Below are positions 41,672 to 45,645 of a stretch of DNA of 64,000 bases, piece by piece. The notes under the pieces are model-generated. The model had not been told where the DNA came from, did no database searches, and saw only the letters and a list, made by a program, of their open reading frames with translations. The stretch's first letter is position 1. Every line of letters starts with the position of its first letter. The stretch comes from Vulcanimicrobiota bacterium (GTDB lineage: Bacteria; Vulcanimicrobiota; Vulcanimicrobiia; Vulcanimicrobiales; Vulcanimicrobiaceae): positions 248,001 to 312,000 of the forward strand of contig DAIDGX010000023.1 of NCBI GenBank assembly GCA_027452165.1, read 5' to 3'. The translations under genes and the position numbers were made by a program.

Positions 41672-42562
41672 TTAAGAGAAAACCGGCCCCGAAGCCGCAA
41701 GAGCCCGGCGCAGGTAGAGCGGCAACGAGAAGAGCCGGCGATGGGTTTGCCCGTCGTAGAAAAAGTTCTCGCCCCGCAGTTTGCCGCAGTAGGCATCGAT
41801 CGCGGCCGGGTCGAGCGCGGCGAGATCGACGCTGTCGCTGCAGGCGAGGAAGGCCCACTCCGTATCGAAGGCCGGTACGTGCTGCGAGAAGCTGCTGACG
41901 TACCGGTAATGCTGCCGCAGCGTACGCGCCATCTTACAGTGCAGCGAAAGATTGTGGAACGCGGTCGTGCTCGCTTGCAACACGTAGATGCCGTCGTCGG
42001 CGAGACGCGACTTGATGAGCCCAAAGACGTCGTTGTTGAAGAGGATGTTGCTCGGCGAATCTTCGAGCGGCTCGGTGAGGTCGGAGATGATGACCCCGTA
42101 GCGATCGCGATCCTCGCGCATGAACGCGAGCGCATCGCCCACGATCACCCGTGCGCGCGGCTCGTCGAAGGCGCCGTCCGACCATTCCGGCAGATAGCGC
42201 TTGGAGAGATCGACGACGAGGCCGTCGATATCGACCATCGTGCAACGCGTGACGTCAGGATGACGCAGCACCTCGCGCAGCGTCGCGCCCTCACCGCCTC
42301 CGAGAATCAGCACGTCACGACGGTCGCGCGCACCCGCCATCGCGGGATGCACGAGCGTTTCGTGATAGATCTTCTCGTCGTTCTGCGAGCTCTGCGTGTC
42401 ACCGTCGAGGATGAGCATCTTGCCGAAGACCGGCGTGCTGATCACGGAGACTTGCTGAAACTCCGAGTGTCCCGCGTAGTACACGTGGTCGATGGCATGG
42501 TGGTGCCGTTCGGTAGGAGCGGACTCCTCAACGTACCATTGCCAGTATTCGGTCTTCGGCAT
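41672..42562 (-). CDS. speE: Polyamine aminopropyltransferase (Thermus SpeE-like)
   Basis: Transfers the aminopropyl group of decarboxylated SAM to an amine, releasing methylthioadenosine. The 296-residue protein shows FGKMLILDGDTQSSQNDEKI then YHETLVHPAM, VLILGGGEGATLREVLRHPD, and CTMVDIDGLVVDLSKRYLPE. The catalytic Asp is in VIISDLTEPLED. These phrases are closest, from memory, to the Thermus enzyme that uses agmatine, so N1-aminopropylagmatine may be the product rather than spermidine directly. ATG 42562 gives the N-terminus PKTEYWQWYVEE. Confidence 0.9.
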   Translation of the reverse strand: MPKTEYWQWYVEESAPTERHHHAIDHVYYAGHSEFQQVSVISTPVFGKMLILDGDTQSSQNDEKIYHETLVHPAMAGARDRRDVLILGGGEGATLREVLRHPDVTRCTMVDIDGLVVDLSKRYLPEWSDGAFDEPRARVIVGDALAFMREDRDRYGVIISDLTEPLEDSPSNILFNNDVFGLIKSRLADDGIYVLQASTTAFHNLSLHCKMARTLRQHYRYVSSFSQHVPAFDTEWAFLACSDSVDLAALDPAAIDAYCGKLRGENFFYDGQTHRRLFSLPLYLRRALAASGPVFS

Positions 42563-42587
42563 AGCGGGCTCGGGGTTTCGCCACACG

Positions 42588-42622: not shown

Positions 42623-44875
42623 CTATCGGCGGCGTTCCGAGAGGCGGTGCATCAGCACGAAGTTGTTTGCGATGACGCTCTGAACGTACGGCGCGATGGC
42701 CGCGGGGAGCGTCACCGGCGTCGCATTGGCGTAGCGGGCCATGCCGTTCTGGACGACGTCGTGGATGCTCGTTCCGAAGTAGTCCCCGACCGTCGCTGCG
42801 GGCGCGGTTGCCTGGATTGCGAAGCCCGCCGCGTACGTCACCGTGAAGCCCGCCGCGCGCAACTGCGACGCGACGTTCTGTAGGTCGCTCGCGAGCGACG
42901 GATTGCTGCGCAGGATCAACGTCACCGCGATCGGCGATGGCGACGTGCGCACGCCGAGATCGCGCTCACCGGGAACATGGACGACGTTTGCAAGCGTCGT
43001 GGCTCGCGCCGCGGCATAGCCCTGAGCGCGCACGGCCATCATGCCCGGTACCCGGACGCTCTGCGGCTTGCCGTTCGCGCAGAGGGTTTGCGCGATCGGC
43101 ATACCGAGCGGGATGCCGACACCGCTCACGTTATCGGGACCGGCCAAGGCCTGGTAGGGCGTCCCGTCGGGTGCGGTCGCGTAGTAGTTCGAACCCGTGG
43201 TGACGTCCAAGAAGTCGGCGGGGCGACGCTGGTACGCCAGATAGAAGAGGCCCTGCGGGGACGAGAACGCGGTCGGAATCGCTCCGCCGCAGTACTCGCT
43301 GATCTCGGCAATCAACGCTGCGGCTTGCGGCGTGCCCCACGACGTGCCGTCGAAGTAGGCGGCAACGCCGCGGTCGATCGTGTACGCGTTGACCGCAGGC
43401 AGCGCGATATCGGGCACGTTGCGCATCGTCGCCGATGCAAATCCGCTCACGCCGACCTGAGGCGTCGGAATCGCGAAGGTCGTCGAGACGCCGCCGCCAC
43501 CCGCACCGTTCGGGTCGCTCCACACGGCCGTATTCGTAATGCTCTTGTCGGTTTGCGTACCGCCGACGCCGATCGCGTTCGGGTCGGAGCCGGGATAGTT
43601 CACGCCGGGCGAATTCACGGGGGCGGGCGACGGCATTCCCACGTAGCACTCGTTGCCCTGATCGCCGCCGGCGGCGACGACGTAGATGCCCGCCTGCGCG
43701 AGCTTTGCGATATTCGATGAATCGGGTTGCGTGAAGTCTTGGCCGTTATAGTTCTCGCAACCGCCAAACGAGACGCTGAGCGCCACGATGTTGTACTTCG
43801 CCGCATCGGCGAGCACTTGGCTATACACAAGATTGAACGACTGATCGGTAAGATCGGGCATCACGTAGAAGCGAATGGTCGCTCCCGGCGCGAGCCCCGA
43901 CACCGTCTCCACGTCGAGCGTCGCTTCGTCCTTCCCCCCTGGATCGGGGGAGGGCGAGGCGCCCACGTACACGGGCGTGTAGGGCGTCGTTTGGGTGATC
44001 CCCAGGCTCGAAAGATAGGCGGCGACATCGCTCTGCGCCGGTGGTGCGTCGCCCAGGATCGCGACCGTGTAGCCTTTGCCGTCGTAGCCACTCTGCACGG
44101 GATACTGAAGTGCGTGCGCGATATCGTACGCGCCCCAGCCCTTCGGCGGCGAGATCGCCGGCAACGTGGGATCGGGACCGGGAATCAACGTGGCGAGCGC
44201 CGAGGGAGCCGGCGTCGGCGTCTGCAGCATCGTCGCGTTGGTGACCACGGCGAAGGTGTAGGTTGCTCCCGCTGCGAGCGCGAGCGCCGGCCGGAACGGG
44301 ACGCCGGCGGGAAACGCAAGCGAGGTCGCACCGCTCGCTACTGGGATCTCTTCTGCCGAGACCCAGCCGTTCGTCGCGCCGGTGTAGTACACGATATCGG
44401 CATAGCCGCCGCTCGCAAGCGGCGCCGCAAGTCCTACCGTCGTGGCAGGCACGTTCGCAAGCGTCATCGCGGCACTACTTTGGAAGGTCAGGTATTCAAT
44501 CGTGGTCACATTCGCGCCGAGCACTTGCGCGCGCATCGCGTGCGCCTGCGGCACGGGTATGCTCCCCGCCGCCGAGCCCGACGCGGCAACGCTGACCGTC
44601 GTCGCGACGGTACTCACCGGCACCGTCAGGGTCGTCGTTCCGGCACTACCTGCCGCGCCGAGCGTGAACGTGGTCGAACTGGAGAGCGAGAGCGGCCCCG
44701 AGGTCGCGGTTGGAAGCGCTGGAACGCTTGCGGTGTTCGTCGGCACGGGTGTCGGGATGACCCCTCCACCGTTGCCACCTCCGCCGCCTCCGCCACCGCC
44801 GCCGCACGCAACGAGTGCCGCACAGGTCAGGACGGCAAAAACGCCGCCGACTCGCAAACCCAATCGCCGATTCAT
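42623..44875 (-). CDS. S53 (sedolisin/kumamolisin) peptidase lipoprotein with a C-terminal pro-domain-like region
   Basis: A secreted serine-carboxyl peptidase, 750 residues. The N-terminus is a lipoprotein signal ending LVAC, followed by a poly-Gly linker. A beta-rich domain spans about 60-230 and the catalytic domain about 245-600. That domain has Glu and Asp in KDEATLDVETVSGLAPG, the oxyanion Asp in VVAAGGDQGNECY and Ser in YFDGTSWGTPQAAAL. The last about 110 residues (IAVTLILR, LRAAGFTVTYA, DYFGTSIHDVV, YANATPVTLPAAIAPYV) match the activation pro-domain that normally precedes the catalytic domain. The start was chosen at ATG 44875 for the signal; an upstream Met is possible. It is monocistronic as far as I see. 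Confidence 0.9.
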   Translation of the reverse strand: MNRRLGLRVGGVFAVLTCAALVACGGGGGGGGGGNGGGVIPTPVPTNTASVPALPTATSGPLSLSSSTTFTLGAAGSAGTTTLTVPVSTVATTVSVAASGSAAGSIPVPQAHAMRAQVLGANVTTIEYLTFQSSAAMTLANVPATTVGLAAPLASGGYADIVYYTGATNGWVSAEEIPVASGATSLAFPAGVPFRPALALAAGATYTFAVVTNATMLQTPTPAPSALATLIPGPDPTLPAISPPKGWGAYDIAHALQYPVQSGYDGKGYTVAILGDAPPAQSDVAAYLSSLGITQTTPYTPVYVGASPSPDPGGKDEATLDVETVSGLAPGATIRFYVMPDLTDQSFNLVYSQVLADAAKYNIVALSVSFGGCENYNGQDFTQPDSSNIAKLAQAGIYVVAAGGDQGNECYVGMPSPAPVNSPGVNYPGSDPNAIGVGGTQTDKSITNTAVWSDPNGAGGGGVSTTFAIPTPQVGVSGFASATMRNVPDIALPAVNAYTIDRGVAAYFDGTSWGTPQAAALIAEISEYCGGAIPTAFSSPQGLFYLAYQRRPADFLDVTTGSNYYATAPDGTPYQALAGPDNVSGVGIPLGMPIAQTLCANGKPQSVRVPGMMAVRAQGYAAARATTLANVVHVPGERDLGVRTSPSPIAVTLILRSNPSLASDLQNVASQLRAAGFTVTYAAGFAIQATAPAATVGDYFGTSIHDVVQNGMARYANATPVTLPAAIAPYVQSVIANNFVLMHRLSERRR

Positions 44876-44936
44876 AGTCCGGCCTAGGTTGGCTACGTGT
44901 GCCACAATTCTTGCGGATCGGCGCTCGGGCTGCATG

Positions 44937-44992: not shown

Positions 44993-45403
44993 CTACGCGG
45001 AGAGCGCGGTCGTCTCGTGATCTCGGGTGACGACGTGGGTGAAGTGCCCTGCCGGCTGCGCGATCCCGCGCTTCACTTCGGTCGTCAACATCGTCGTCGC
45101 GTCGAGTGCCTTGGCGGCAAACTCGCACGCGAGCCACGGATCGGTGTGGTCGCCGCACGTGTAGAAATCCATCGCGGCGTAGCCCGTCTCGGGCCAGGTG
45201 TGGATCGAGAGGTGCGACTCCGCGAGTACGACTACGCCGGAGACGCCCTGGGGTTCGAAGCGATGGAATGCCACCTCCATCACCGTCGCTCGCGATGCCT
45301 TGGCCGCGCCGATCATCATCTCGCGGACCGCATCCACATCCGTGAGCTTGGCTGCATCGCAGCCTGACAACTCACACACAATGTGCGTACCGAGTGCCTT
45401 CAA
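44993..45403 (-). CDS. speH: S-adenosylmethionine decarboxylase proenzyme (prokaryotic SpeH type)
   Basis: Pyruvoyl enzyme that makes decarboxylated SAM for aminopropyl transfer. The 136-residue protein shows LKALGTHIVCELSGCDAAKL. VLAESHLSIHTWPETGYAAM contains the Glu-Ser autocleavage site that forms the pyruvoyl group, and DFYTCGDHTDPW follows. I place the start at TTG 45403, where family homology begins, with AGGAGAG about 10 nt upstream. The longer in-frame sequence upstream is its structured leader, not protein. It has its own promoter and terminator. Confidence 0.92.
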   Translation of the reverse strand: MKALGTHIVCELSGCDAAKLTDVDAVREMMIGAAKASRATVMEVAFHRFEPQGVSGVVVLAESHLSIHTWPETGYAAMDFYTCGDHTDPWLACEFAAKALDATTMLTTEVKRGIAQPAGHFTHVVTRDHETTALSA

Positions 45404-45611
45404 TTTTTTACCGCTCTCCTGGACCCTCGGGGGAAATCCCACCTCCGGACTTCGTCGGCTGGCGCCTGCAGTGCAGTCACGTCCCCGACCTATCGACGAG
45501 CTCTTGCCGGCGCTTTTCGGTGCACGGGCGACTCGCCGCGATGGCGCGAAAAGGGCGCGCCCACCCCATACCGTCGGCCTCGGCGTCCCCTCACGGCGAC
45601 CCAAGGTCCGG
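45404..45611 (-). promoter_or_regulatory. Long structured 5' leader of speH (riboswitch candidate)
   Basis: This GC-rich gap of about 210 nt has no gene I can support. CCGGAC at the 5' end (45611-45606) is complementary to GTCCGG (45450-45445) just before the Shine-Dalgarno region, forming a closing helix. GTCG/CGAC lies inside it, with a GGCGCG/CGCGCC hairpin and smaller stems. The 3' part next to AGGAGAG has GGGATTTCCC. This layout is what a translation-controlling leader would look like. Confidence 0.5.
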
Positions 45612-45616
45612 CGAAC

Positions 45617-45645
45617 ATGATAGCCCCTGCAGCCCCCCCTGTCTA
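45617..45645 (-). promoter_or_regulatory. Promoter of speH
   Basis: On the reverse strand TAGACA (45645-45640) is separated by 17 bp from TATCAT (45622-45617). This predicts a start near 45610 and a leader of about 207 nt before the TTG at 45403. Confidence 0.65.

Follow-up and report, generated by a model that had tools for sequence, protein, structure and literature searches.

What does the long stretch ahead of speH do and, if it is transcribed into a regulatory RNA, to what does that RNA respond? The question arises in the window, by which we mean the whole stretch of 64,000 nucleotides analysed here, where the gene for adenosylmethionine (AdoMet) decarboxylase was originally predicted to lie behind a promoter of its own and a long, structured, riboswitch-like leader. 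SpeH uses SAM as its substrate, some SAM riboswitch classes act on the Shine–Dalgarno (SD) sequence, and RNAs that sense polyamines have long been predicted. The genes and promoter elements are the following.

44993-45403, minus strand: speH, adenosylmethionine decarboxylase, TTG start codon at 45403-45401 (TIGR03330, 146.8 bits; PF02675)
41672-42565, minus strand: speE-like spermidine synthase, downstream of speH on the same strand
45640-45645, minus strand: -35 box TAGACA of the speH promoter, with a homologous TTTACA or TAGACA in 72/75 leaders
45617-45622, minus strand: -10 box TATCAT, 17 nt from the -35 box

Both the TIGR03330 and the PF02675 match identify the downstream gene as speH, with its TTG codon where it had been placed. 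A speE gene is found near speH at 38 of the 87 speH loci of the family and the divergent neighbour of the leader is sufB at 65 of them, many of these loci being incomplete. In the window, speH and speE are separated by a long ORF on the minus strand (42623-44935) with a match to the Pro-kumamolisin activation domain, resembling an S53 peptidase, an insert that is present at only four of the 87 family loci, many of which are again incomplete. The promoter, TAGACA-17-TATCAT, is found on the minus strand at 45617-45645 as predicted and recurs in relatives: a promoter can be recognised in 72 of the 75 leaders examined, and in these the -35 box is TTTACA in 69 and TAGACA in three, with a spacer of 17 nt in 70. 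Its position would put the start of transcription near 45610 and so give a leader of about 207 nt, the length that had been proposed.

To define the RNA, leaders were gathered from the 87 family loci, of which L092 and L031 were dropped for their short upstream sequence and L016 and L020 as duplicates, leaving 83 with 75 distinct cores; these cores were aligned and used to build a covariance model, R1. Comparison of the aligned sequences indicates that a genuine RNA structure forms in the leader, made up of helices P1 to P5 and a stretch, GGAGGUGGGA, that is invariant in 75/75 distinct cores. Its parts in the window, with the percentage of alignment cells that are paired, are listed below, the counts for promoter and P0 covering 72 of the 75 leaders.

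45568-45613, minus strand: P0, a local 5' hairpin of variable sequence that includes CCGGAC (mean folding z -2.2; z < -1 in 56/72 leaders)
45415-45567, minus strand: conserved core, modelled as R1 (the window scores 166.2 bits)
45564-45567, minus strand: 5' strand of P1, GGGG, with its partner at 45430-45433 (78.7% paired; changes on both sides in 2/4 pairs)
45543-45561, minus strand: P2, hairpin GGCGCG/CGCGCC with a nearly invariant CCC in its loop (99.6% paired; changes on both sides in 3/6 pairs)
45494-45538, minus strand: P3 arm (98.1% paired; changes on both sides in 6/7 pairs)
45506-45529, minus strand: P3b, within the P3 arm (94.4% paired; changes on both sides in 5/7 pairs)
45454-45489, minus strand: P4 arm (94.4% paired; changes on both sides in 5/9 pairs)
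45466-45476, minus strand: P5 hairpin, within the P4 arm (99.3% paired; changes on both sides in 2/4 pairs)
45432-45446, minus strand: phylum-wide motif GGAGGUGGGAUUUCC, possible hairpin P6 (98.3% paired, without covariation)
45415-45420, minus strand: SD sequence AGGAGA, at the position first given for it (AGGAG ahead of the start in 72/75 leaders)

The case for this fold is comparative, since the folding energy of the whole leader is ordinary (z = +0.51) and gives it no support. The model has 37 pairs, and of their 2766 alignment cells 94.8% are paired, a figure that is favoured more than the double changes by the way the structure was drawn, from one aligned sequence with the RNAalifold prediction in view; sliding one strand against the other leaves at most 44.6% of cells paired. 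Relatives' leaders, which the original prediction had singled out as the place to look for covarying pairs, show changes on both sides in 23 of the 37 pairs and in 147 cells (12.3 and 39.5 in shuffles), and the fold is conserved. On a FastTree tree the 37 pairs accumulate 31 same-branch compensatory changes, and at least two such changes are found for 8/37 modelled pairs vs 14/11138 other column pairs; a stricter test, a home-made G-test against a simulated null distribution, returned no pair at E < 0.1. The comparison shows a P2 to P5 fold that covaries and, less surely, P1. It is also the minus-strand RNA that folds, despite the divergent sufB, because G-U cells outnumber A-C cells by 135 to 23 in P2 to P5. 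Mean identity to the window is 83.6% for the core, 73.4% for speH DNA and 76.1% for SpeH protein, and the core is better conserved than the speH DNA in 62 of 73 comparisons (73 of 74 leaders being covered). A coding extension of speH was considered as an explanation and rejected: an in-frame stop falls between the core and the speH start in 48/75 leaders, the core-to-start lengths are spread over all three frames, and there is no Pfam match.

Among known RNAs, nothing in the window reaches the cut-off of any Rfam 15 family. When the leader region was scanned permissively (E up to 5), the one family returned was radC, whose match lies on the plus strand inside speH and scores 14.1 bits (E 2) where 40 would be required. 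The impression that no known SAM-riboswitch class is present agrees with the Rfam comparison, which gave no SAM match in window or leader; the SAM-I model RF00162 matched 0/41 relatives searched, the same search matching 3/14 control genomes. An RNase P RNA in disguise was also discarded as a candidate, RNase P being located elsewhere (G000:C19). The fold of the speH leader, matching no Rfam family, is previously uncatalogued.

How widely the RNA occurs was followed with R1, which was built from the family leaders that it detects, so that only the matches in family f2 and the failure to match strongly elsewhere are independent results. A speH match is present in 86 of 99 family genomes, with leader DNA upstream of most, and R1 lies at 86 of the 87 family speH loci, the sole miss being L092, for which only 18 nt of upstream sequence is available. 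Over the order R1 was found in 87/103 genomes, all with best E <= 5.4e-16, and only in G060 is a second match equally strong; that genome contains two copies of speH (G060:C35 and G060:C41; loci L078 and L086), each with its own leader RNA. In family f2, R1 precedes speH in two of four genomes and carries compensating changes, such as P4 GUCG/CGAC to GCUG/CAGC; here P0 is absent and the promoter immediately precedes P1. Within the order, the R1 RNA is tied exclusively to speH. A class-wide search of 117 genomes found nothing beyond the order and no member in family f3. The P2 to P5 domain was also sought beyond the order with unfiltered R1 on 29 loci of other families, where the best score was 17.1 bits; 3/4 of the listed out-of-order R1 alignments rest on the GGAGGUGGGA stretch.

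The part of the leader around this invariant stretch has a wider distribution. Across the phylum, where speH is present in 125/149 genomes, most speH leaders read contain a short motif with the consensus GGAG-GUGRGAU-YUCC, usually 30-62 nt upstream of speH. Of 39 leaders read outside the family, two of them from f2, GGAGGT lies 30-62 nt before the start in 32; the other seven comprise two with GGAGGT at 81-83 nt, three with a close variant and two without the motif (L179 and L191, the start of L191 being uncertain). The GGAG and 3' segments of the motif can pair as P6 at 4/4 positions: 36 of the 37 motif-bearing leaders outside the family allow this (shuffled sequences already give 0.32), as do 70 of the family's 75. 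Because its 5' side hardly varies, P6 is unprovable by covariation. The nearly invariant CCC of the P2 loop could likewise form a pseudoknot with GGG of the motif loop, and within the family neither this pairing nor P6 covaries. In leaders outside the order, a CCC suited to pair with GGG lies within 18 nt upstream in 14/35 vs 7.7 expected, a weak excess (35 of the 39 non-family leaders were counted, two lacking the motif and the f2 pair being left out). Several genomes also have GGAGGTGGGAT at places other than speH, and this short string is therefore not diagnostic when taken by itself. Beyond the phylum, the whole genome collection was searched with the strict pattern only (the motif plus GGGGTGGC). 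Seven strict-pattern records came up and were rejected as evidence of the motif in other phyla; six are apparently genomes already in the phylum and one is from Akkermansia, inside a gene that we take to resemble that for lysyl-tRNA synthetase.

Two further features were seen over the ribosome site of non-family leaders. In the last 40 nt before the ATG of four f16 leaders (L171, L173-L175), the SD apparently lies within a long hairpin, GCAAAUCACUCC / GGAGAUUUGC, as judged by eye. A conserved GGGGUGGC...GCC-AUG stretch recurs in L155, L156, L170, L172, L176-L178, L182, L188 and L190, from several distant families, and perhaps folds into a small hairpin that covers the start codon.

What, then, is the RNA for? 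Its covariation, its conservation and its lack of an Rfam match strongly support the original idea of a long, structured, riboswitch-like regulatory speH leader that belongs to no known SAM class, and we regard the leader as almost certainly a conserved, structured cis-regulatory RNA. Riboswitches in general have a conserved RNA structure with covarying pairs ahead of a metabolic gene, and such a structure is found here; we lean, by a small margin of confidence, towards a small-molecule riboswitch acting on speH translation and belonging to a class outside Rfam. Since the RNA is found ahead of the AdoMet decarboxylase gene alone, the ligand of such a riboswitch would probably be made in this pathway, as its end product or as an intermediate (spermidine, another polyamine or dcSAM), with SAM less likely; so exclusive an association would favour a polyamine or dcSAM over a general SAM sensor. 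From this gene context, a polyamine itself can be suggested as the ligand only tentatively. The sensor would be the multi-helix domain, together with the conserved letters of its single strands. Between GGAGG and the SD, YUCCC could choose among alternative partners, namely GGAG (forming P6), the 5' GGGG (forming P1) and the SD, and ligand binding, through that choice, would leave the SD either free or occupied. There is no minus-strand terminator in the leader, which makes control of initiation likelier than attenuation. In energy calculations pairing of the SD with YUCCC is rare (mean 0.02 over 75 leaders), and the SD is 59% unpaired.

The tie to a single gene would be expected also of a leader bound by a protein, on the model of the autoregulated ribosomal protein operons, with SpeH or another RNA-binding protein recognising GGAGGUGRGAUYUCC and the arms and repressing translation. 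The short motif, present across the phylum without the large domain, also behaves as a recognition site should. However, no RNA-binding domain is reported in SpeH besides AdoMet_dc, and the elaboration of P2 to P5 in one order exceeds what a binding site needs, which leaves protein binding an unlikely explanation, if still the foremost competitor of a riboswitch.

The GGAGGUG of the motif matches the usual 16S anti-SD with perfect complementarity and lies mostly 36-58 nt from the start, so that the leader might instead be a constitutive translation element that maintains an accessible ribosome site, or retains ribosomes at this SD-like sequence, and senses nothing. For such a role the invariant letters beyond GGAGGUG and about 140 nt of covarying arms would be costly, and we consider it improbable. 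An RNA thermometer, or a general melting of the SD region dependent on Mg2+ or polyamines, could draw on the hairpins of at least 4 bp that place the SD in their loop in 29/75 leaders vs 2.8 expected, and on the long hairpin that seems by eye to cover the SD in L171 and L173-L175; yet an SD hairpin is absent from the window's leader and from most relatives, and a thermometer has no need of invariant junction letters, so this reading is very doubtful. Scarcely credible, finally, is the helix of the original prediction, in which CCGGAC and GTCCGG would enclose the hairpins and control the SD: both strings are present (45606-45611 and 45445-45450) and pair at 6/6 positions in some register in 24/72 leaders, but only in those; leaders with GCCUGG retain UCGGAC and so carry a mismatch, the 5' arm belongs to the local hairpin P0 and is missing from f2, where the promoter abuts P1, and GTCCGG, rather than standing directly before the SD, overlaps the SD-like GGAGGUGGGA, which does not initiate and lies some 43 nt away from the start codon. 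The helix that does close the structure is probably P1, although only 78.7% of its cells are paired.

A small-molecule riboswitch, the reading that we prefer, would not be the first for this pathway. We found no report of an speH leader RNA in the literature searched, including passages of PMC11109978 and PMC8632094, most subscription journals, preprints and supplementary files lying outside that search. The odc1 motif, as presented in PMC8632094, is a single extended hairpin with a pseudoknot and an 11-residue uORF, found before ornithine decarboxylase in alphaproteobacteria. On that description the speH leader resembles it in that both are structured leaders of genes for polyamine synthesis, both have UUG starts, and in both the structure includes the ribosome site or comes close to it, and differs in being multi-armed, in its gene, speH, and in having no consistent uORF, as judged by in-frame extension (stop in 48/75). 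We found one class that senses polyamines described, the spermidine riboswitch, from 13 rare variants of SAM-I, and its authors expect more (Salvail et al. 2023, PMC10853860). According to that paper it is a four-stem SAM-I variant of Gram-positive bacteria and metagenomes, which controls transcription termination and precedes polyamine-synthesis genes including speD. Measured against that account, the speH leader is likewise a structured leader before a polyamine gene, AdoMet decarboxylase included, whereas it has no SAM-I match, no terminator, another fold and another phylum. It is possible, and we suggest it with reserve, that the speH leader represents a second, unrelated polyamine (or dcSAM) riboswitch class, in which an elaborate multi-helix domain was grafted in one order on an ancient, minimal GGAGGUGRGAUYUCC core that accompanies speH in most of the phylum. 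If so, it would record how a riboswitch grew step by step at one gene, a small regulatory motif having been elaborated within one lineage. An RNA that accompanies one polyamine gene across an order, and has a smaller counterpart in the rest of the phylum, makes the question of polyamine sensing directly testable.
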